Shown here: positions 26,417 through 39,243 of the stretch, one piece after another
How positions within the stretch are numbered: the stretch's first letter is position 1
Layout of the letters: the number at the start of each line of letters is the position of its first letter
From: Indolivaga macrotermitis
Lineage (GTDB): Bacteria > Bacteroidota > Bacteroidia > Bacteroidales > Dysgonomonadaceae
Direction: 5' to 3'
Assembly: GCF_900128985.1 (NCBI RefSeq)
Contig: NZ_FQUC01000001.1
Span: 496,001 to 560,000, forward strand
Length of the DNA stretch: 64,000 nt
Program-made: the position numbers and the translations under genes
The notes under the pieces: model-generated
What the model saw: only the letters and a program-made list of their open reading frames with translations
The model's database searches: none
Told to the model about the DNA's origin: nothing

Positions 26417-26451
26417 AAAACGGGTTCAATTAAATCAATTGAACCCGTTTT
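26417..26451 (-). terminator. Terminator of the surface-protein cluster
   Basis: A perfect 15-bp stem (26417-26431 with 26437-26451), five-base loop, flanked by A/T-runs on both sides and therefore usable in both directions. It lies 46 bases past the stop of the last large paralog. Confidence 0.85.
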
Positions 26452-26496: not shown

Positions 26497-29400
26497 TTAA
26501 TCATCGGCACGAGGTGCTCCCGGACTTTTCAGATCAGGATTGACAAGGAATGTACATGCTCTGACGTTGGTATGATAATACAAATAGAATGTACCACACG
26601 TGGCATCTGTAACTGCGAGTCGCAAATACCTGCGTGAAGGGTTTGCTATTGTGCTGGTGAACATATAAGTGGTAGAGGTTGACCTAAATGTAGGATTTGT
26701 TTCTCCGGTCAGATTAACCCATGTTCCGGTACCGGCAGTGTTGTTATTGTATGCCCATTGGTATGTGAAGACTCCGCTACCACCGGTGGCAGCTTGTCCG
26801 ACAATAATCGCCTGATAGGGACAGAAAGTTGCTTCCTGCATTACTCCATCCAGATCGGCAACACTTACAGGATCATATACCGATATATATATACTGTCTT
26901 TTACTGTTATACCACACGAAATACTATTTATTTCAACTTTATACCATCCTTCGTTCACTTTGGTTGCATTAGGTACCACAGGATTTTTTTCGTTAGAGGT
27001 GAATCCGTTCGGACCTGTCCAAGAATAAGTTGCATTTGTAACTGTAAATCCATTGACGGTGATGGGTGATCCGTAACATACAGGTGTTACCCCATAGGCT
27101 AAAGCTGTTCTGTCTAGAGAAACAAGTGTAACCTGCTGATTAAAAGAGTTACCGCAACTGTCGGTCATACGTACGGTATAGGTCTCATTCGCTATACCAA
27201 AGTTTCCGAGGTCGATTGCACTGCTCGAGGTCATTGGCGGAGTCAATTGAGTTGTATTCGTCGCATCATATACAGTATAAGTATATGGAGTAACACCGTT
27301 CGTTGCTTGTAAGGTAAGATATCCGGTCTGACCGGAAGGACACGAATATGCACTTGTTTTATCTGTATCCAAAGCCATCGGAGCAGGATTGTAAACGATC
27401 GTATCCAACTTTATCGCACAAGCACTGATGCTGTTTGTTGTCATTACTCCCAGAATATAAGTTCCTGGAATATTAAGTAAGAAGTAGTCGTTACTAGTAC
27501 TAGCTATAACTTTAGACCCGGCACCACTTCCCGATGGTACTGACGTCATACGATAATACACGGTAGCAAGAGGATTACCATTGTTGGAAATACCTCCTGT
27601 TGGATAGAGTTGCATACCCATACAGTCCTGTGTTGTGGTATAGCCTATATTATCCCCCGTATAACCTCCTACTATATTTGCTGTTGCGGTATAAGTTTGA
27701 CCACAATGGATAACAGTAGCTGTATATTCACCGGGTGGAAGATTGGTTTCAGGAAAAGTATAGTAATAACCAGTACTGCCGCTGGTTGAATTTGTAGTGA
27801 AAGTGTAGGTTTGACTTGTATATCCATCAGGCCCTGTGACTGTAATTGTTGAGCCGGCTTTATAGGCTTTGTACGAGTTCCCTGCTGATACTCTTAATTG
27901 ACCTCTGTTATCGTAGCAGGTAGAAGTACTGCTTTTAGTCAAGGTAAAGCTATCAGCAATATAAGTTGCCCGTGGTAGATTGAAGGACGTAGTAATAGTA
28001 TAATTGTCCCAATTAGGATAAACGAAAGTAAATGTATATGTTACATCATATTGTAGGCCATCAATTGTTTTGGAGCTTGTAGTTGTCAATGTATCGAGTT
28101 TAAATACAACACCAAATTCATCGGTTACCGTTACATAGCAGGGTAAAGCCGATTCACCTTCACATGGGGTACCTGCATTTGTATAATAAGTTCTTTTATA
28201 GGAATCACAATTATTGTATTCGGGATAAGTACTAATAGTATTAAATGTGACTGATGGTTTTGTTGACGACGGTGTACCTCCAACCATCGAATAATTGTTC
28301 TGGATAACAAATCCTGAAGCATCGGTAATTCTCAGATATTGGTCATCTCCAGGATTACATGCCCAAGTAAAATTTGTATCAGTATATAAATAATTATCAT
28401 TGTAATATACTTGTGACCCGTCTGACTTATTAGTGACTTCGATTGTCAGAGGATAGCAGAACATATTATAGTAAGGGTAGCTGGTTTTCGAATAAGTAAG
28501 ATTATAAGTTCGGACACCGGTACAGATATTAGTACTGTAGGTCATAGATGTCTGATACGGGTTATAAGTATTGAAGGATGTAATGGCTGTTGGACAACTT
28601 TTTACCCTGGTATAAACAGTTAAAGAATTTGCGGTATAAAAATCCGATACACTATTCGGGCTCAGATCAAACAAGTCTCTGTATGTTGAACTTGATCCGC
28701 TAAAGTATCTCACTTGGAACCAGTTTTCATCTTTGGGCGTTTCCCCTACAGGTGCTATCCCATATTCAAATAATCCGTCATAGTAATACCTGTACCAGTC
28801 GGGATAGGTAGTGGATGAATAACTATAATATGGTTGATAATAGAACTTCGAGCATTCGGTACCATCTCCGTATGGGTAAAAATACCTCTGATTAGATCCC
28901 GGAGGAACAGTAGTAATTTCATCGATTATAAATGACGCTGTGGCAGTATAGCAGCCGTCGTTGGTGGCAACTGTATATGTTCCGGAAGGCCAGGTACCGT
29001 CGAGCGTATAGCGCCATCCGGCAGTGGCCGATCCACTGGTTGCTCTAGTCGCACTTACTGTTTGCGGAACAGTAACTCCCGAGGGGGCGGATGTAATGGT
29101 AAAGGTTGGCGTAGTGGTTTGATTTCCGTTTTCCATGAATACAACGATAAGCCCAGTGCTGCAATTTGCGTACGAATTACGTGAGGTCGGTACAGACGCG
29201 CTACTGGTCGCTGCCGTGGCAACAAAAGACAACCGGGGTTCTACATAATCACCGGTGACTACTACATTATTTATAGTACGTACAATAGGCTCTCCGGATA
29301 TGCTGCCACAGTAACCGGCAGCCTCCAGATTATAAGTACCCGGAGGCAGGTCGTTAAACACATTAGTACTCACAGGCCCTATGGAAAGGCTCCCTGTTAC

Positions 29401-29592
29401 AGACTTTAGTGAGTATTGCTGGCTTACCAGATTCTCTGCAGAAGCCCCCGAAAATGTAATCGTAATACTACCGTTGCTCTGGCAGGTGGAAGGTGTAACT
29501 GTCGATGTCGCAATAACATCGCTACAATCCTGTGAATATACAGCCATAGTTGTAAAGCAGACTATATATATAAATGCCAATAATTTCTTCAT
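26497..29592 (-). CDS. Large Cys/Tyr-rich secreted repeat protein, paralog 1 (D1)
   Basis: Function unknown. This 1031-residue protein has a signal peptide ending in AVYSQ (residue 21), so it is exported. After it comes an SprB-repeat-like module (CQSNGSITITFSGAS ... LPPGTYNLEAAGYCG, about 22-110). A second Ig-like module spans about 115-225, and a strikingly Tyr-rich part with DWYRYYYDGLFEYGIAP covers about 230-320. Further beta modules follow, then another SprB-like module (CPSGQTGYLTLQATNG, about 755-830) and an Ig-like module (PVCYGSPITVNGFTV, about 845-920). The C-terminal block ends in FLVNPDLKSPGAPRADD. About two dozen Cys residues, mostly spaced as module-closing pairs, suggest disulfides. 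No type 9 secretion sorting domain or membrane anchor is visible at the C-terminus. It is the last of three tandem paralogs; several DNA blocks are almost identical to D3. Confidence 0.85.
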   Translation of the reverse strand: MKKLLAFIYIVCFTTMAVYSQDCSDVIATSTVTPSTCQSNGSITITFSGASAENLVSQQYSLKSVTGSLSIGPVSTNVFNDLPPGTYNLEAAGYCGSISGEPIVRTINNVVVTGDYVEPRLSFVATAATSSASVPTSRNSYANCSTGLIVVFMENGNQTTTPTFTITSAPSGVTVPQTVSATRATSGSATAGWRYTLDGTWPSGTYTVATNDGCYTATASFIIDEITTVPPGSNQRYFYPYGDGTECSKFYYQPYYSYSSTTYPDWYRYYYDGLFEYGIAPVGETPKDENWFQVRYFSGSSSTYRDLFDLSPNSVSDFYTANSLTVYTRVKSCPTAITSFNTYNPYQTSMTYSTNICTGVRTYNLTYSKTSYPYYNMFCYPLTIEVTNKSDGSQVYYNDNYLYTDTNFTWACNPGDDQYLRITDASGFVIQNNYSMVGGTPSSTKPSVTFNTISTYPEYNNCDSYKRTYYTNAGTPCEGESALPCYVTVTDEFGVVFKLDTLTTTSSKTIDGLQYDVTYTFTFVYPNWDNYTITTSFNLPRATYIADSFTLTKSSTSTCYDNRGQLRVSAGNSYKAYKAGSTITVTGPDGYTSQTYTFTTNSTSGSTGYYYTFPETNLPPGEYTATVIHCGQTYTATANIVGGYTGDNIGYTTTQDCMGMQLYPTGGISNNGNPLATVYYRMTSVPSGSGAGSKVIASTSNDYFLLNIPGTYILGVMTTNSISACAIKLDTIVYNPAPMALDTDKTSAYSCPSGQTGYLTLQATNGVTPYTYTVYDATNTTQLTPPMTSSSAIDLGNFGIANETYTVRMTDSCGNSFNQQVTLVSLDRTALAYGVTPVCYGSPITVNGFTVTNATYSWTGPNGFTSNEKNPVVPNATKVNEGWYKVEINSISCGITVKDSIYISVYDPVSVADLDGVMQEATFCPYQAIIVGQAATGGSGVFTYQWAYNNNTAGTGTWVNLTGETNPTFRSTSTTYMFTSTIANPSRRYLRLAVTDATCGTFYLYYHTNVRACTFLVNPDLKSPGAPRADD

Positions 29593-29633
29593 CTTACTTT
29601 GAATGTAATCTATTTTATCCGATCTGTTTTATT

Positions 29634-32600
29634 TTAATCTTCAGTTTTCGGTCCACCCGGATTTTTCAAATCAGGATTGACTAGGAACGTACATGCTCTA
29701 ACATTAGTATGGTAATACAAATAGAATGTGCCACAGGTTGCATCCGTTACCATAAGACGGAGGTATCTGCGTGAAGGGCTTGCTGCTGTACTTGTAAACA
29801 TATAAGTAGTAGAAGTTGTTTTAAAAGTCGGATTTGTTTCTCCACTCAGGTTAGACCATGTTCCGGTACCGGCAGCATTGGTATTATATGCCCATTGGTA
29901 TGTGAAACTTCCACTACCCCCGGTGGCAGCCTGTCCGGCAATAATAGCCTGATAGGGGCAAAAGGTTACTTCCTGCATTACTCCATCCAGATCGGCAATA
30001 TTTATAGGATCATATACCGATATGTATATACTGTCTTTTACTGTTATGCCGCACGATGTACTGGCTATCTCAACCTTATACCATCCTTCATTGACTTCAG
30101 TTGCATTAGGCACCACAGGGTTCTTTTGGTCAGAGGTGAATCCGTTCGGCCCTGTCCATGTATAGTTAGCATTTGTAACTGTAAATCCATTGACGGTGAT
30201 AGGCGAGCCGTAACATACAGGGCTTTGTCCGTAAGCTAGGGCTGTTCTGTCGAGAGAAACGAGGGTTACCTGTTGGTCAAAAGAGTTTCCGCAATTGTCG
30301 GTAATACGAACTGTATAGGTTTCGTTTGCTACACCAAAGTCACCGAGATCAATTGCACTTTCCGAAGTCATAGGTGGGGTTAACTGCGTTGTATTCGATT
30401 CGTCATAAACGGTATAGGTATACGGTGCAACCCCGTTTGTAGCCATAAGTGTCAGATATCCGGTCTGGCCAGAAGGGCAAGAATATGCACTTGTCTTGTC
30501 CCTATCCAGAGCCATTGGTTGCGGATTATACACTATTGTATCTGTCTTTATAGCACATCCTGTAAGACTATTTGTGGTCATCACCCCCAGAATATAGGTT
30601 CCTGCAGTATTAAGTAAGAAATAGTCGCCACTTGTGCTTGATATTACTTTCGAACTGGCGCTACTTCCGGATGGAGCCGACATCATGCGATAATACACGG
30701 TAGCAAGAGGATTACCATTGTTGGAAATACCACCGGAAGGATAGAGCTGAGTACCCATACAATCCTTAGTTGTTGTATAAGTTGGTTTATCAGCGGTATA
30801 TCCACCTATTATATTTGCCGTTGTCGTATAAGTTTGCCCACAAAATAGAACAGTAGCTGTATATTCACCCGGAGGAAGGTCGGTTTCAGCGAAATCCCTG
30901 TAATATCCGGTACTGGTAGTGACTGTATTTGAAGTATAGGTATAGGTCTGGCTTGTATATCCATCAGGACCTGTAATTGTTATTACTGTACCTGCTTTGT
31001 AACATTTATTCGAATTTCCGGTAGAGACTCTTAACGTTCCGGCATTTTCCTTACATGCGGAGATTCCGGATTTTGTAAGTGTAAAGCTGTCGGCGATATA
31101 GGTCGCCCGCACCAAATTAGAAGTTGTAGTAAGAGTGTAATTATCCCAATTAGGATAAACCGCAGTGAACGTATATAATACCCCGTACTGTAAGTTATCT
31201 ATTATTTTAGTTGCAGTGCTGGTCAATGTATCCTGGAGGACAACCGTACCCACATTGTCGGTTACTGTTACATAGCAAGGAAAAGCAGATTCATCATCAC
31301 ATGGAGTACCGGAGCCTGTATAATAACTCCTTTTGTAAGAATCACAATTATTGTATTCAGGATAAGAACTTACAGTGTTGAGATAAAATGTCGGTTTTGA
31401 AGACGATGGAGTTCCACCGACCATTGAATAATTTGTCTGTATTTTATATCCGGAAGCGTCGGTTACATTCAGGTATTGATCATCTCCGGGGGCACAATCC
31501 CATGTGAAATTAGCATCTGTATAAACATAGTTGTCGTTATTGTATACCACTGATCCGTCTGACTTGTTGGTTATGGTTATAGTCAGCGGATAACAAAAAG
31601 TATGATAGTAACCATAGGAACTCTTTATATAATTTGGTCTGTAGGTTCTGACTCCTGTACAAGTATTTTGTGTATAAGTCATGGCCGTACTGTTCTGATT
31701 ATAAGTGTTGTAGGATGCCATTGAAGTGGGGCAACCCTTTACTCTGGTGTAGACTGTTAAAGAATTGGATGTATAAAAGTCCGATACTTTATTATTACTG
31801 ATATCAAATACATCCTGATAAGTTGCGCTCGATCCATTAAAATATCTGATCTGAAACCAGTTTTCATCTTTGGGCATTTGCCCTACGGGTGCTATTCCAT
31901 ATTCAAACATCCCGTCTGAATAATACCGGTACCAGTCCGGATAAGCAGCCATAGTATAATAATAGTATGGTTGGTAAACAAATTTAGAGCAATCAGTACC
32001 GTCTCCGTATGTTAGAAAACTTGATGCACTTGAACTTCCCGGAGGTACTGTTGTGAGTTCTTCGATGACGAAGGTTGCAGCAGCAGAGTAACAACCATCG
32101 TTGGCAACTACGGTATATGTGCCTGCCGGCCAGGTTTCGTCGAGCATATAACGCCATCCGGCTGTAGCCGATCCGCTGGTTCCTTTAGTCGCACCTACTG
32201 TTTGTGGTACTGTTACACCATTGGGGGCGGATGTGACAGTAAAGGTAGGCATATCAGCCTGATTACCATTTTCTAGTAATACCACTATTAGGCCGGTATT
32301 ACAACCTGTGTATGACTTACGGGATGTCGGAACAGTTGTTGAAGGTGTTGGTCCCGGGGCAACAAAAGATAACCGGGGTTCTTCGTAAGACCCGGTAACT
32401 ACTACACCATTGATGGTGCGCACAATTGGTTCACCGGATATGCTGCCACAGTAACCGGCAGCCTCCAGGTTATAAGTTCCCGGAGGCAGGTTAGAAAATA
32501 CATTGGTACTGACAGGGCCTATAGAGAGACTTCCTGTTGTCGACTTCAGCGAGTATTGCTGGCTTACCAGATTTCCAGCTGAAGCTCCTGAAAATGTAAT

Positions 32601-32732
32601 CGTAATAGAACCGTTGCTTTGGCAGGTTGAGGCTGTAACTGTAGCTGTAGCAGTAACATCGCTACAATCCTGAGAATATACAGCCATCGTTGCAAAGCAG
32701 ACTATATATATAAATATCAAAAATTTCTTCAT
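29634..32732 (-). CDS. Large Cys/Tyr-rich secreted repeat protein, paralog 2 (D2)
   Basis: Function unknown. The 1032-residue protein has the same layout as D1 and D3: signal peptide (MKKFLIFIYIVCFATMAVYS), SprB-like and Ig-like modules, Tyr-rich middle and the conserved C-terminal block ending FLVNPDLKNPGGPKTED. It is the most divergent of the three in the Tyr-rich middle (for example PVGQMPKDENWFQIRYFNGSS against PVGETPKDENWFQVRYFSGSS in D1 and D3). It is closer to D1 in the first module and in the block near residues 670-720, and closer to D3 in the block near 590-640. It lies 41 bases upstream of D1 and 46 bases downstream of D3 on one strand, so all three are probably co-transcribed. Confidence 0.85.
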   Translation of the reverse strand: MKKFLIFIYIVCFATMAVYSQDCSDVTATATVTASTCQSNGSITITFSGASAGNLVSQQYSLKSTTGSLSIGPVSTNVFSNLPPGTYNLEAAGYCGSISGEPIVRTINGVVVTGSYEEPRLSFVAPGPTPSTTVPTSRKSYTGCNTGLIVVLLENGNQADMPTFTVTSAPNGVTVPQTVGATKGTSGSATAGWRYMLDETWPAGTYTVVANDGCYSAAATFVIEELTTVPPGSSSASSFLTYGDGTDCSKFVYQPYYYYTMAAYPDWYRYYSDGMFEYGIAPVGQMPKDENWFQIRYFNGSSATYQDVFDISNNKVSDFYTSNSLTVYTRVKGCPTSMASYNTYNQNSTAMTYTQNTCTGVRTYRPNYIKSSYGYYHTFCYPLTITITNKSDGSVVYNNDNYVYTDANFTWDCAPGDDQYLNVTDASGYKIQTNYSMVGGTPSSSKPTFYLNTVSSYPEYNNCDSYKRSYYTGSGTPCDDESAFPCYVTVTDNVGTVVLQDTLTSTATKIIDNLQYGVLYTFTAVYPNWDNYTLTTTSNLVRATYIADSFTLTKSGISACKENAGTLRVSTGNSNKCYKAGTVITITGPDGYTSQTYTYTSNTVTTSTGYYRDFAETDLPPGEYTATVLFCGQTYTTTANIIGGYTADKPTYTTTKDCMGTQLYPSGGISNNGNPLATVYYRMMSAPSGSSASSKVISSTSGDYFLLNTAGTYILGVMTTNSLTGCAIKTDTIVYNPQPMALDRDKTSAYSCPSGQTGYLTLMATNGVAPYTYTVYDESNTTQLTPPMTSESAIDLGDFGVANETYTVRITDNCGNSFDQQVTLVSLDRTALAYGQSPVCYGSPITVNGFTVTNANYTWTGPNGFTSDQKNPVVPNATEVNEGWYKVEIASTSCGITVKDSIYISVYDPINIADLDGVMQEVTFCPYQAIIAGQAATGGSGSFTYQWAYNTNAAGTGTWSNLSGETNPTFKTTSTTYMFTSTAASPSRRYLRLMVTDATCGTFYLYYHTNVRACTFLVNPDLKNPGGPKTED

Positions 32733-32778
32733 TTGCTTCGAATATAATATTTATATTATGGATCGGTTCTATCTTATT

Positions 32779-35700
32779 TTAATCTCCGGCTCTCGGTGCT
32801 CCGGGACTCTTGAGATCGGGATTTACAAGGAACGTACAAGCTCTTACGTTGGTATGGTAATACAAATAGAATGTACCACATGTGGCATCTGTAATTGCGA
32901 GCCGCAAATATCTGCGAGAAGGACTTGCTGCTGTACTAGTAAACATATAAGTGGTCGAAGTTGTTCTAAACGTAGGATTTGTTTCTCCGGTCAGATTAAC
33001 CCATGTTCCGGTACCGGCAGTGTTGTTATTGTATGCCCATTGGTATGTAAAGCTTCCGCTACCTCCGGTTGCTGCTTGTCCGGCAATAACCGCCTGATAG
33101 GGGCAAAAGGTTACTTCCTGCATTACTCCGTCCAGATCGGCAACACTTACAGGGTCATATACCGCTATATATATACTGTCTTTTACGGTTATATTACAAG
33201 CGGCACTGTTAATCTCTACTTTATACCATCCTTCGTTCACTTCGGTTGCATTAGGTATCACAGGGTTCTTCTCACTTGAGGTGAATCCATTTGGCCCGGT
33301 CCATTTGTAAGTAGCATTTGTAACTGTAAATCCGTTTATATTGATAGGTCCACCGTAGCATACGGGAGTTCCTCCATATGCCAAAGCCGTCCTGTCGAGA
33401 GAGACAAGGGTAACCTTCTGGGGAAATTCGTTGTCGCACTGGTCTACCATGCGTACTGTATAGGTTTCGTTTGCTACACCAAAGTTACCGAGGTCTATTG
33501 CAGTGCTCGAAGTCATAGGTGGGGTCAGTTGCGTTGTATTCGATTCATCATATACTGTATAAGTATATGGCGGTACTCCGTTTGTCGCCTGTAAAGTAAG
33601 GTATCCGGTTTGTCCTGAAGGACAAGAATATGCACTCGTTTTATCTGGATCCAAAGCCATAGGTTGAGGATTGTATTCTATAGTATCTAATTTAATGGCA
33701 CATCCGGTAAGGCTATTTGAATACATCAGACCCAGAACATAAGTTCCTGCAGCATTAAGAGTAAAATAGTCTCCGCTACCATTGGTTATAACTTTAGAGT
33801 TATCCCCTCCGCTCGGTACAGTAGTCATACGGAAATATGCAGCACTCAAAGGTGTTCCATTGTTGGAAACACTTCCTGAAGGGAAAAGTCTTAGACCTGT
33901 ACAATCCTGTGTCGTAGTATAGCTCAGGCTCTCGCCTACATATCCCGCTGCTATAGTAGCTTTTGTGGTATAGGTTTGCCCACAAAATAGAACAGTAGCT
34001 GTGTATTCACCAGGGGGAAGATAGGTTTCAGCGAAATTTCTATAGTAGCCGGTACTGGTTGAGGTTGTATTCGCTGTATAAGTATAGGTTTGGCTTTCAT
34101 ACCCATCGGGTCCTGTGATTGTTATTACTGTACCTGCTTTGTAACATTTAGACGAACTGTTGGTAGCAACTCTTAATATACCTGTATTATCGCTACAGGT
34201 AGAGGTGCTGGTTTTAGTCAGGATAAAACTGTCGGCAATATAAGTCGCCCGTGGCAGATTTGATGTTGCGGTAGATGTATGGTTACCCATATTTGGATAT
34301 ACCGCAGTAAATGTATATGTTATCCCATACTGTAAGCCATCAACCGTTTTAGAGCTTGTCGTTGTCAATGTGTCCTTTTGAAATACATTACCAAATTCGT
34401 CAGTTATGGTTACATAACATGGAAAGGTCAAATCGGCATCACAATTGTTTGTACTATAGGTCCTTTTGTAAGAATCGCAATTGTTATATTCAGGATAGCT
34501 ACCTACTGAATTAAGGGTTATTCCTATTGCTGTAGTTGTACCCCCAGTCATTGAATAATTATTCTGGATTACCAATCCTGAAGCATCAGTTATGGTCAGG
34601 TACTGGTCATCTCCCGGATTACAAGCCCATGAGAAATTAGTATCAGTATACAAATAATTATCATTGTAATACACAGACGATCCATCCGATTTGTTTGTTA
34701 TTTCGATAGTTAGCGGATAACAGAACATATTATAGTAAGGATAGCTGGTTTTTGAATAAGTAAAACTATAAGTACGGATACCGGAACATGCATTAGTACT
34801 GCTAGTTATAGATCTCTGATACGGGTTATAAGTATCGTAAGATGTAATGGCTGTTGGACAACTTTTTACCCTGGTATAAATAGTTAAAGAATTTGTGGTA
34901 TAAAAATCGGATACACTATTCGGACTCAGATCAAACAAGTCTCTATACGTTGAACTGGATCCACTAAAGTATCTGACCTGGAACCAGTTTTCATCTTTGG
35001 GCGTTTCCCCTACAGGTGCTATCCCATATTCAAATAATCCGTCATAGTAATACCTGTACCAGTCGGGATAGGTAGTGGATGCATAACTATAATATGGTTG
35101 ATAATAGAACTTCGAGCAGTCGGTACCATCTCCGTATGGGTAAAAATATCTCTGATTAGTTCCCGAAGGAACAGTTGTAAGCTCATTAAGTACTAATGAT
35201 GCCGTTGCAGTATAACAACCATCGTTAACAGCTACAGTATATGCTCCTGCCGGCCATGTGCCGTCGAGCGTATAACGCCATCCTGCAGTAGCCGATCCAC
35301 TGGTTGCTCTGGTCACATTCACAGTTTGCGGAACAGTAACGCCCGAGGGGGCAGATGTGATGGTAAAGGTTGGCGTAGTGGTTTGATTTCCGTTCTCCAT
35401 AAATACAACGATAAGCCCTGTACTGCAATTTACATACGAATTACGCGAGGTAGGTATTGATGCAGTACTGGTGGCAGTAGGAGCTACAAATGACAGCATA
35501 GGTTCTTTATAATCACCTGTAATCGTTACATTGTTGACTGTACGTACAATGGGCTCGCCACTTAAACTACCACAGTAGCCTGCTGCCTCGACGTAATAGC
35601 TACCCGGAGGCAGGTCGTTAAACACATTAGTGCTGACAGGCCCTCTAGCTATGCTTCCTGTAATAGATTTTATCGAGTATTGTTTGCTTACGAGATTCTC

Positions 35701-35856
35701 AGCCGACGTTCCTCCAAGGGTAACTGTAATCGAACCGTTACTCTGGCAGGTCGAAGGTGAGGGTGTCGCTGTGATAGTGACATCGCTACAATCCTGTGAA
35801 TATACAGCCATACTTGTCAGGCAGACCATATATATAAGTGTCAATAATTTTTTCAT
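32779..35856 (-). CDS. Large Cys/Tyr-rich secreted repeat protein, paralog 3 (D3)
   Basis: Function unknown. The protein is 1025 residues from the Met at 35856, chosen because it begins the signal peptide MKKLLTLIYMVCLTSMAVYS; a Met four codons upstream (35868) is less likely. The modules follow the order seen in D1 and D2. Its N-terminal module (DCSDVTITATPSPSTCQSNG) differs from the others and is the one most like the decayed fragment just upstream. In the Tyr-rich middle it is nearly identical to D1 at the DNA level (34980-35081 matches 28716-28817 base for base). Missing residues in the module after about 440 make it slightly shorter. It ends in FLVNPDLKSPGAPRAGD. Confidence 0.85.
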   Translation of the reverse strand: MKKLLTLIYMVCLTSMAVYSQDCSDVTITATPSPSTCQSNGSITVTLGGTSAENLVSKQYSIKSITGSIARGPVSTNVFNDLPPGSYYVEAAGYCGSLSGEPIVRTVNNVTITGDYKEPMLSFVAPTATSTASIPTSRNSYVNCSTGLIVVFMENGNQTTTPTFTITSAPSGVTVPQTVNVTRATSGSATAGWRYTLDGTWPAGAYTVAVNDGCYTATASLVLNELTTVPSGTNQRYFYPYGDGTDCSKFYYQPYYSYASTTYPDWYRYYYDGLFEYGIAPVGETPKDENWFQVRYFSGSSSTYRDLFDLSPNSVSDFYTTNSLTIYTRVKSCPTAITSYDTYNPYQRSITSSTNACSGIRTYSFTYSKTSYPYYNMFCYPLTIEITNKSDGSSVYYNDNYLYTDTNFSWACNPGDDQYLTITDASGLVIQNNYSMTGGTTTAIGITLNSVGSYPEYNNCDSYKRTYSTNNCDADLTFPCYVTITDEFGNVFQKDTLTTTSSKTVDGLQYGITYTFTAVYPNMGNHTSTATSNLPRATYIADSFILTKTSTSTCSDNTGILRVATNSSSKCYKAGTVITITGPDGYESQTYTYTANTTSTSTGYYRNFAETYLPPGEYTATVLFCGQTYTTKATIAAGYVGESLSYTTTQDCTGLRLFPSGSVSNNGTPLSAAYFRMTTVPSGGDNSKVITNGSGDYFTLNAAGTYVLGLMYSNSLTGCAIKLDTIEYNPQPMALDPDKTSAYSCPSGQTGYLTLQATNGVPPYTYTVYDESNTTQLTPPMTSSTAIDLGNFGVANETYTVRMVDQCDNEFPQKVTLVSLDRTALAYGGTPVCYGGPININGFTVTNATYKWTGPNGFTSSEKNPVIPNATEVNEGWYKVEINSAACNITVKDSIYIAVYDPVSVADLDGVMQEVTFCPYQAVIAGQAATGGSGSFTYQWAYNNNTAGTGTWVNLTGETNPTFRTTSTTYMFTSTAASPSRRYLRLAITDATCGTFYLYYHTNVRACTFLVNPDLKSPGAPRAGD

Positions 35857-35882
35857 TATGTCGTTCAAGATAATATTTATAC

Positions 35883-36109
35883 TATAGTGACAGGTTCTAT
35901 TGTTATGCTTCCTGTAATAGATTTAGTGAGTGTTGTTTGCTTGTCGGGTTCTGAACCGAAGCCCCTCCAAGAGTAGCTGTGATACAGCTATTACTCTGAA
36001 AGGTAGAAGAGAAGGATATAGCAGTGATAGTTACATCACTACAATCCCGGATATAAACAACCGAAATGAAGAGTATAATCCCCAAAAACAGATAAAATAA
36101 TTTTTTCAT
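35883..36109 (-). pseudogene. Decayed 5' fragment of a fourth large paralog
   Basis: A reading frame of 68 codons starts like the large paralogs (signal-like MKKLFYLFLGIILFISVVYI, then RDCSDVTITAISFSSTFQSN). It is most similar to D3. After KQHSL a one-base deletion shifts the frame and gives an early stop; in the next frame the homology continues (KSITGSI followed by EPV) for about a dozen codons to about 35883, where the copy is cut off just before D3. The two Cys positions expected in the first module are damaged (STFQSN instead of STCQSN). It is best read as a dead remnant, though a short peptide could still be made. Confidence 0.8.
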
Positions 36110-36125
36110 AATTAGCTTCCTATTT

Positions 36126-36614
36126 TCAAGGTCTTATGTAGATCATTTCACATTTTCCTGCGAGTGTTTGTCCCGGATATTTGGAAGATCCGTAAACAAT
36201 ATTATCAAAAGTTATGGTCAATTGGTTACCCGATTCTTTAATGGTGTAGTCAAATAGTTGAATGCTATTGCCGGATTCTGTAGATTCGGTGGTTTCTTTC
36301 TTATTTGATTGAGGTTCAGCCAATGTTAATACATTCTCCGAATTCACATTGTACTTATTATCATCACCTAAAATTTGGACTGTGGTAATTTTACCGTCGG
36401 TTAACTCCAGCGATTTGAAAACCGGAAGAACAGGGAAGTCCCAGTCTGAGGTCATAATCTGCACAGAGTCGTTAAGGGTCTTGACAAAAAGCTGAGACTT
36501 AGAGTCATTATTGTGTACAGTCAGCACCACTCTGTCTATACGAAGAGAATCTTGCGAATATACGGCTGTAGTTGCTATACAAACTACATATATAAATATC
36601 AGTAATTTTTTCAT
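36126..36614 (-). CDS. Secreted protein of unknown function sharing the large paralogs' signal peptide
   Basis: This 162-residue protein was not recognised. Its first 22 residues (MKKLLIFIYVVCIATTAVYS, then QD) are almost the same as the signal peptide of D2, and the DNA there is also about 80 percent alike. The mature part is unrelated: it has no Cys-rich modules, begins SLRIDRVVLTVHNNDSKSQ, carries a polar linker (SNKKETTESTESGNS) and ends GQTLAGKCEMIYIRP. Its start overlaps the stop of the preceding gene by 4 bases (ATGA), so it is translationally coupled to the VGI-type protein B. It is probably part of the same exported system as the large paralogs. Confidence 0.75.
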   Translation of the reverse strand: MKKLLIFIYVVCIATTAVYSQDSLRIDRVVLTVHNNDSKSQLFVKTLNDSVQIMTSDWDFPVLPVFKSLELTDGKITTVQILGDDNKYNVNSENVLTLAEPQSNKKETTESTESGNSIQLFDYTIKESGNQLTITFDNIVYGSSKYPGQTLAGKCEMIYIRP

Positions 36615-37312
36615 TTTTCTTTGAACATTATATTCATAAATGTTTTTTCGGATGTAGTGTAATTTGCAACTACACTATAGCTTAATACTCCTGCTGCCGA
36701 AACAGAGACAGATGTATAAACCAAGGGGTCGTAATAAAGGACAAAGTAGTCCATATCTGCAGATGTTGCAGCAACAGTCAGAGCAGCTGCTGTAGCACTC
36801 TTAACTTTTGGAGTACCATACTGCGATTTATAGATATCAAACAATTTAACAGTGAAGACGCCAGCTGAATAAGTGTAATTTGTAGCATCGGGCAATGCAT
36901 CTTCTTCGATTGGAAGAACTACCGAAGGCATATAAAACTGGAGTTTTTTAGTTCCGGTGATAGGTATCCATAAACCCGAATTAGCTCCTGCTCCGTTATC
37001 TGCAGTAGCTTTGTAATAGTAATATCCGATTGTTGTTAGATTTATAGTCTTGCCTGCAGGGGCTGTTGCAGCTGCTGTAACATATACAACGGCACCATCT
37101 TGTGCAGCCGCATATTGTGCATTCTTGCTAGCCAGTTGATCTCCTGTCAACCGGGGAGCGATTAAACCTTCGGCTGTTGTAGCACCTGTATTTGAAGCTA
37201 CAACATCGAGCGTGGCCACAGGGCTGTCGGTATTTACTCCTACCTGAGCAAACATAACGCTGTTTACGCACATAAAAGAGATTAGGGATAAGTATAGTTT
37301 TAATTTTTTCAT
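36611..37312 (-). CDS. VGI-type secreted protein B
   Basis: Function unknown. This 233-residue exported protein has a signal peptide ending in MFAQ, then VGVNTDSPVATLDVVAS and GLIAPRLTGDQL. This VGI(N/G)..P.ATLDV start is frequent in Bacteroidota surface and tail-fibre-like proteins. A middle part contains IGYYYYKA and GLWIPI, and the C-terminal half is a separate domain with a YTYSAGVFTVKLFDIYKSQYG segment, ending in TTSEKTFMNIMFKEK. It is a full-length paralog of the upstream gene (37339-38028), from which it is separated by 26 bases, and overlaps the next gene by 4 bases. No Cys occurs in the mature part, in contrast to the large paralogs. Confidence 0.75.
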   Translation of the reverse strand: MKKLKLYLSLISFMCVNSVMFAQVGVNTDSPVATLDVVASNTGATTAEGLIAPRLTGDQLASKNAQYAAAQDGAVVYVTAAATAPAGKTINLTTIGYYYYKATADNGAGANSGLWIPITGTKKLQFYMPSVVLPIEEDALPDATNYTYSAGVFTVKLFDIYKSQYGTPKVKSATAAALTVAATSADMDYFVLYYDPLVYTSVSVSAAGVLSYSVVANYTTSEKTFMNIMFKEK

Positions 37313-37338
37313 TTTCAGATGTATTTTAATTGATTATT

Positions 37339-38028
37339 TTATTTTTCCCTGAGCATTATATTCATAAATGTTTTTTCAGATGGTGTATATCCGCTTACCA
37401 GATAATACGTCATCACTCCGGCTGTAGTTACAGAGACCGAAGTATATACAGTTGTGTCATAATAGAGTATAAAGTAATAGTAGTCAGTTGCAGTATTACT
37501 TCCCGTTTGCAGAGAAGCTATGGAGTTACTGGATGCTTTAGGATTACCCAGTTGCTCCTTGAAGAGACCGAATAGGTTAACCGTAAACCTGTTGGTTGCA
37601 GGAGCAGTATAATATGTATTATCGGGTAATGAATACATATCCGTTGGTAAAAGAAGCGTTGGAACGTAAAATTGTTCTTTCGTTTCGTCGGCAAATGCTA
37701 TCCATAAGCCAGCTCCACTTTCGGCTGTAGCATCATAAAAGTAGTATCCGATACTTTTTATGTTTTTCGTTTTTCCGGTAGTGGCCGACGCCACTTCGGT
37801 AACGTAAACCATAGTTCCGTTTTGAGCAGTTCCATATTGAGCATTTTTAGCAGTCAATTGATTTCCTGTTAACCGGGGGGCGATAAAACCTTCTGCAGTC
37901 GAGGCATCAGTAGCAATGGCTGCTACATCCAATGTGGCAGAAGAAGTGGTCTTACCTATTCCTACCTGGCTGAATGCCGTCATAGTAAACAGGGAAAATA
38001 CAATGGAAAAAAATAATTTAACTTTCAT
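37339..38028 (-). CDS. VGI-type secreted protein A
   Basis: Function unknown. This 229-residue exported protein is first in the cluster. It has a signal peptide ending in AFSQ, then VGIGKTTSSATLDVAA and GFIAPRLTGNQL, IGYYFYDA and GLWIAF, and a C-terminal domain ending TPSEKTFMNIMLREK. Overall similarity to protein B runs the full length, and the C-terminal motif SEKTFMNIM is the best conserved part, suggesting a role in assembly or secretion. The mature protein has no Cys. The gene is preceded by about 1.5 kb without a convincing gene; a weak promoter candidate lies at 38408-38438. Confidence 0.75.
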   Translation of the reverse strand: MKVKLFFSIVFSLFTMTAFSQVGIGKTTSSATLDVAAIATDASTAEGFIAPRLTGNQLTAKNAQYGTAQNGTMVYVTEVASATTGKTKNIKSIGYYFYDATAESGAGLWIAFADETKEQFYVPTLLLPTDMYSLPDNTYYTAPATNRFTVNLFGLFKEQLGNPKASSNSIASLQTGSNTATDYYYFILYYDTTVYTSVSVTTAGVMTYYLVSGYTPSEKTFMNIMLREK

Positions 38029-38407
38029 TCCTAATATTCATTTGTGGTTAAACAAAACTGTTTTTTTAATTTCTTGAATTATGTTGTGTTTTATTAACGC
38101 ATTGTTTTTTATCAATACATTATTAACAGAGTTTTTTAACTATTCAATTTATAATTATTTATTATTGGAGATTTTTTTGAAACCTGAAACAGAAGAAAAT
38201 TAACCAAGTAGGCATGATGTATTTTTTATACTTATCATTCTATCTGGGAGCAGTTTCCTGTGTTCGAATCTCAGATATTTGAGTTTACTTCTTAGAATTA
38301 TTAGCACTCTAAAAGAGACTGTAATCTTTAAAATAGAGATCATAGAATTGTTGCGTAAATAACATAATGTGTCGTTCGGACGTTGCTTTCGATCTCCAAA
38401 AGTAAAA

Positions 38408-39200: not shown

Positions 39201-39243
<43 letters not shown>

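Follow-up and report, generated by a model that had tools for sequence, protein, structure and literature searches.

What is encoded by a block of six genes for putatively secreted proteins in Indolivaga macrotermitis? The block lies in the window analyzed here, a stretch of 64,000 nucleotides (RefSeq assembly GCF_900128985.1, contig NZ_FQUC01000001.1, positions 496,001 to 560,000; coordinates below count from its first letter). It comprises two small proteins, S1 and S2, a linker protein, C, and three large paralogs, D1, D2, and D3. A preliminary description had proposed a multi-component extracellular structure, for example an adhesive fibre with small and large modular subunits; as a whole, this interpretation was partly supported. 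Apparently, the block belongs to a widespread and undescribed type of module, in which a small protein (S) is paired with a large protein (L) of variable fold. The published titles and abstract openings that were searched hold no description of such a module.

S1 (37339..38028; all block features are on the minus strand) and S2 (36611..37312), named A and B in the preliminary description, each consist of a VGI-type N-terminal module and a C-terminal domain of ~105 amino acids (aa), here termed S-CTD. The S-CTD spans 37339..37671 in S1 (ending SEKTFMNIMLREK) and 36611..36937 in S2 (ending SEKTFMNIMFKEK), where AlphaFold2 predicted mostly strands with low to moderate confidence. No Pfam or NCBIfam match was obtained for the S-CTD, and S1 and S2 had no Pfam match at E up to 1, the FimA/Mfa-type domain included. 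The N-terminal ~100 aa, a VGI-type module of Bacteroidota surface proteins, recur in many other proteins of these genomes as N-terminal-only matches; most of these proteins lack the S-CTD.

A profile of the S-CTD retrieved 115 rows from 11 of 61 related genomes. At least 80 rows lie within 1.5 kb of a gene for a beta-propeller/PKD protein of ~500 aa, at least 43 of them upstream at a distance of 9-191 bp and at least 37 downstream within 1.1 kb; these counts are lower bounds, with up to 25 candidates scored per genome. A further 14 rows are located upstream of a D gene, and a propeller or D gene on the same strand was found within 1.5 kb of at least 94 of the 115 rows. The 21 rows near neither were inspected individually: eight are followed by another large protein (L260-L264, L266-L268), one by an L remnant (L090), and 12 by none, which leaves 13 of 115 rows without an intact partner. 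The 12 comprise three rows at contig ends (L258, L259, L272), three degenerate or fragmentary ones (two in L270, one in L271), and six real exceptions. The window genome holds 28 rows in 15 clusters, 10 with a propeller, two with D, one with another L (L260), and two that are remnants; the cluster described initially is therefore not a lone one. The preliminary description had named the regular occurrence of homologs of the small proteins without D among the findings that would refute the proposed structure. This was observed, and the D-specific idea gave way to a wider rule, by which S accompanies a large protein whose fold varies and whose C-terminal end is conserved.

D, propeller, and other L proteins have similar ends despite no overall similarity. 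The core of this tail is Cys...N-[P/R/K]-x-[I/M/V]. For counting, an expression was used that demands Cys, 1-9 residues, a small or hydrophobic residue, N, [PRKHNSG], any residue, and [IVLMTQ] within the last 45 residues. The tails of D1 (32779..32841, CTFLVNPDLKS region), D2 (29634..29696), and D3 (26497..26559) fit this expression. Immediately downstream of S stand 43 distinct genes with products of 250 aa or more, of which 31 encode the tail with Cys and three a tail without Cys. The nine tail-less genes are three TIGR04131 type B genes (L286, L287, L306), one gene cut by the stretch end (L282), a near miss (L267), an altered propeller gene (L275), and unrelated neighbours (L091, L257, L259). 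The tail was also found in 8 of 230 other open reading frames (ORFs), and all eight are L genes by other evidence: those of L086, L090, and L281, the propellers without S of L273 and L274, and D1-D3 of the window, which were listed here because a gap of 269 bp holding a gene remnant exceeded the limit of the script. As an independent control, 87 Ig/SprB-like loci (L094-L180) without S-CTD match were scanned, none of which had been used in writing the expression. The tail occurred in one of 412 complete ORFs and one of 67 D-like proteins; this lone match lies in a type B-like end and is probably fortuitous.

Furthermore, the S-CTD varies with its partner. On a tree of 67 sequences and 108 columns, in which many forks are unresolved (two of 69 sequences were omitted for length, eight are unlabelled), the partner label changes 11 times as compared to a mean of 29.6 in shuffles, none of 200 being as low. 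The window S proteins fall into a branch of 21 rows with a support of 99, which holds 14 D-type, four other-L, and three unlabelled rows; all 14 D-type rows sit within it. As far as sequences go, these comparisons establish the pairing of S and L, their conserved ends, and S-CTD subfamilies that track partner type. The pairing and the L tail are well supported, and the conserved ends appear to have coevolved as partners.

The D-type module was compared across the relatives. A D query retrieved 13 near-full-length genes in 11 operons of five of the 61 genomes and weaker partial matches in eight further genomes. S stands upstream of D in 11 of 11 D operons. Judged by position, C intervenes in 10 of 11; a sequence search recovered nine of those 10, with no sequence match for C in the D operon of genome G023. 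The genes thus form a unit, as had been claimed; within the Dysgonomonas genus the arrangement S-C-D recurs in four of six genomes (10 operons), so that its parts are inherited jointly, and S is frequently found without D. In two other genomes the same chromosomal site (L074 and L075), where S1 has syntenic counterparts, carries S1-S2-C-D with one D; the three D genes therefore represent an expansion in the window lineage. Pairwise dS (synonymous divergence) among D1-D3 is 0.79-1.23, the ratio of nonsynonymous to synonymous divergence (dN/dS) is 0.13-0.16, and identity is uneven along the length. These values argue for old duplicates that are maintained by selection, with some exchange; D1-D3 are under purifying selection.

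D is predicted to be a chain of beta-sandwich modules, although at low confidence. Foldseek matched the D1 model mostly to fibronectin/Ig chains, with fragments of GhpA from Aureispira sp. CCB-QB1 at ranks 10 and 29. GhpA is the only strong relative of D of known structure: it shares repeated Ig-like modules with the D profile (E 8.9e-170, 19 stretches) and with D1 alone (E 4.4e-50, 11 stretches). GhpA has 5898 aa, whereas D has ~1030 aa, and the similarity is limited to the repeated modules, so that it speaks for the build of D and not for a hook. The Aureispira hook protein is reported to be heptameric and secreted via the type IX secretion system (T9SS) (PMC11205867). The case for SprB repeats is weaker than in the preliminary description: the best PF13573 SprB repeat score in the window D proteins was 17.3 bits, below the Pfam cut-off of 28 bits. 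Across the 13-member D family, SprB matches were found in 10 members at E up to 0.1, the best at 2e-10.

The S-CTD is not confined to the relatives. In an even sample of the phylum it was detected in at least 13 of 395 genomes, the window genome included, a lower bound with up to 12 candidates scored per genome; the others are four genomes of group f30 and eight of group f31 in the same class. Two of 14 named genomes, Dysgonomonas sp. HGC4 and Flavobacterium soli, contain it; F. denitrificans DSM 15936 and the eleven others gave no S-CTD match. A tail-bearing L stands beside S in eight of 15 loci inspected (L277-L281, L285, L288, L289), the tail of L288 being without Cys. A PorP/SprF gene (TIGR03519 over cut-off) lies near S in eight of the nine loci of f31 and F. 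soli, L285 being the exception, and seven of those eight also hold a type B gene, six over cut-off and L288 below it. No PorP/SprF-like ORF was noticed by inspection in the six f30 loci, where no model scan was run. The bodies that carry the S-CTD range from about 190 aa to 3505-3539 aa (L283, L284).

How could S and L act together? We propose that the block represents a wider family of secreted modules with two parts, in which L (an Ig-chain D, a beta-propeller/PKD protein, or another) ends in the Cys tail with N-[P/R/K]-x-[I/M/V], and S, which seems to be a fibre-like protein, ends in the S-CTD. Both ends would be matched, partner-specific docking and/or sorting ends that seat one L on its cognate S at the cell surface. 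Target binding would fall to the variable L body, multiplied and diversified L copies such as the three D proteins would yield a set of surface binders, and C may be an accessory particular to D-type modules. That S and L are exported together as T9SS-linked partners at the surface, matched via their C-termini and with the variable binding part on L, has in our estimate an even chance of being right; physical contact between them, the T9SS route, and an adhesive or binding role of L are what we infer. Besides the pairing, the tails, and the subfamilies, SprA in the S-CTD genomes tested, the PorP/SprF genes near S in one group, the match of D to GhpA, and the low dN/dS of D1-D3 count in favour of this reading. 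A further step is more tentative: S-CTD and L tail could be two halves of an undescribed T9SS-linked sorting-and-assembly code with mutual recognition. Known T9SS surface proteins carry type A or B, more rarely type C, C-terminal domains; in the present case, numerous secreted proteins without these signals carry a matched pair of other conserved ends. If a docking or sorting code exists, it would explain the construction of much of the Dysgonomonas surface. Its users among the Bacteroidia would range from Dysgonomonas to flavobacteria, and one genome would hold about a dozen partner-specific pairs. Attachment of the matching end would then allow any body to be placed on a fibre at the surface, unannotated proteins would gain a name, and the tail could serve as a short tag for protein display on Bacteroidia.

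Several observations weigh against this proposal. Neither S nor L matched T9SS sorting models, TIGR04183 and TIGR04131 included, and hhalign gave the S-CTD probabilities of 0.1 and 0.2 against type A and type B profiles (5 and 6 reference rows), by which a diverged type A or B domain was rejected. SprA was found in all 24 S-CTD genomes tested (11 of 11 among the relatives, 13 of 13 others); as it is common in relatives, 49 of 61 in all and 38 of 50 of those without S-CTD, its presence proves little and is permissive only. S occurs without L in L257 (two S), L269 (two S), L092, and L265, and L without S in L273 and L274. L092 occupies the place of the S-C-D arrangement of L078/L079, and L265 shares a flank with the S-C-D arrangement of L080, so that S was apparently retained at both sites after loss of C and D. 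Three flavobacterial S genes (L286, L287, L306) have a type B protein without tail directly beside them. The tail expression was composed after many of these proteins had been viewed, and the count of 31 in 43 downstream genes is not blind. Some partner labels behind the 11 changes on the tree are noisy (for example, those of L257 and L259 came from unrelated neighbours), and near-copies favour clustering. Finally, the models of S2 and D1 have mean pLDDT (model confidence) values of only 47.8 and 39.5.

The alternative that survives best, though we regard it as unlikely, is that S-CTD and L tail each serve, independently, as a new sorting signal of the T9SS type and that the operon reflects co-regulation without contact. 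The S-CTD ends very different bodies, as a sorting domain would, the tail occurs on L proteins of unrelated folds, and in one group T9SS type B and PorP/SprF genes lie near S. Like T9SS type A, B, and C domains, the S-CTD is C-terminal, ~100 aa long, beta-rich, and found on many different bodies; it differs from them in lacking a family match and similarity to the type A and B profiles, type C having been compared by NCBIfam scan alone. The window genome has 12 type A matches (TIGR04183) vs 28 S-CTD rows. Independent signals would leave unexplained why S-CTD subfamilies track partner type and why hardly any Ig-like protein without an S neighbour carries the tail. Moreover, the tail of 15-20 residues is far shorter than known T9SS signals, which measure ~100 to 235 aa in types A and B (PMC12618676). 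Type A domains are described as 7-stranded sandwiches (PMC10994853), and a T9SS type C is on record (PMC10202324).

An improbable alternative is that S serves L as a dedicated carrier or as a chaperone in the periplasm, as PorP/SprF does for type B adhesins, and stays outside the final surface structure. The position of S, usually directly upstream of L and 9-191 bp apart, would fit such a helper. Only one PorP/SprF-family protein is encoded per genome in five of six Dysgonomonas genomes, that of the window genome on contig C26, and L would need another helper. The sequence of S is not that of a beta-barrel, the proteins of 3505 and 3539 aa that carry an S-CTD are unlikely chaperones, and orphan S genes remain in L092 and L265 after the apparent loss of C and D. 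According to PMC12635249, type B cargo remains on its own carrier.

We give little credence to the view that these are independent surface proteins which became adjacent by local duplication and lateral spread and share no function. The mosaic identity of the tandem duplicates D1-D3 and the existence of orphan S and L genes would fit this view; yet S pairs with unrelated L folds across different families, and its S-CTD subfamilies are partner-specific. The least credible reading, a non-standard SprB-type gliding adhesin operon (sprCDBF-like), draws on the weak SprB-repeat similarity of D, the presence of T9SS, and the order S-type B-PorP in some flavobacterial loci, but we dismiss it because S, D, and propeller L lack TIGR04131, D thus having no type B C-terminal domain, because the block holds no PorP/SprF gene and the only one of the genome lies on another contig, and because F. 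denitrificans DSM 15936, which we take to be close enough to F. johnsoniae to stand in for it, lacks the S-CTD; SprC and SprD were outside this comparison. The S-L module nevertheless resembles the SprB-SprF system of a type B adhesin and a PorP/SprF protein in that a large modular surface protein stands beside a dedicated partner gene, the large protein bears a C-terminal signal, and the S-CTD lies near type B and/or PorP/SprF genes in eight of nine loci. It differs in that S is not a PorP/SprF barrel.

The layout of the block agrees with the preliminary description. S1 and S2 are 26 bp apart, S2 overlaps C (36126..36614) by 4 bp (ATGA), and gaps of 46 bp and 41 bp separate D1 (32779..35856, ATG start) from D2 (29634..32732) and D2 from D3 (26497..29592). 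All lie on one strand with spacings of at most 46 bp outside the 269-bp gap between C and D1, which holds a decayed D remnant (35918..36109); this remnant covers the start region only and is 53% identical to residues 1-64 of D1 in the own-genome comparison. D1, which is large, modular, and Ig/FnIII-like and ends in the conserved tail, is 73% identical to D2 and 81% to D3. Signal-peptide-like starts were recognized in all six intact genes, judged by eye without a prediction program. S1 and S2 share SEKTFMNIM and have no Cys beyond residue 22, C has a single Cys close to its C-terminal end, and D1-D3 are rich in Cys and Tyr as claimed (24-25 Cys beyond residue 22, 88-92 Tyr). C stands between S and D in the genus and has no known relative; as a diverged S-CTD it was rejected (hhalign probability 0.1). 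A terminator-like hairpin of 16 pairs followed by a T run (26417..26451) closes the block; the scan of the window counted 11 terminator-like sites vs 9.0 in shuffles, and the hairpin stands out because of its stem length alone. Two plus-strand genes flank the block, one of uvrB type (39586 onwards) and one for a PitA-type transporter (up to 26260). No convincing inverted-repeat pair for an invertible promoter was found upstream of S1. A match to the Bacteroidota -7 element (TAnnTTTG) at 38397-38404 was given no weight because 83 matches were seen in the window vs 68 expected. Between the uvrB-type gene and S1, ~1.2 kb from S1, a run of ~20 AG dinucleotide units (39203-39242) may be a slippage site.

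A phage origin of S was rejected, as no relative was present among 24 candidate viral-contig stretches and PHROGs yielded nothing for S2 and only weak matches of unknown function for S1. The 3505-aa protein of L283 had matches in PHROGs and Pfam that were judged to be low-complexity. The genes upstream of the 3505-aa and 3539-aa S proteins (L283, 2-703; L284, 1-297) have a tail-like end, which suggests that L may also precede S. Additionally, S-CTD and L occur in several unusual settings. In L276 (genome G023), the S-CTD ends a body of 643 aa with a propeller protein adjacent, and L275, a locus of the window genome, holds a propeller protein whose altered C-terminus lacks the tail. In two genomes of the genus, three tandem VGI-type proteins of ~405 aa without S-CTD directly adjoin S-propeller modules (L086, 5987-9730; L087, 2700-6548). 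L083 (G017:C49) of a related genus carries triplets of 1570-aa Ig-rich and 550-aa proteins with type A-like C-termini, that is, D-like modules on another ending. Finally, a contig of the window genome (L272, G000:C38:4000-8667) ends in a 30-residue S-CTD fragment, beside which lies an ORF that is at least 1220 aa long, runs past the end of the stretch, and has a start that appears Cas9-like by eye.

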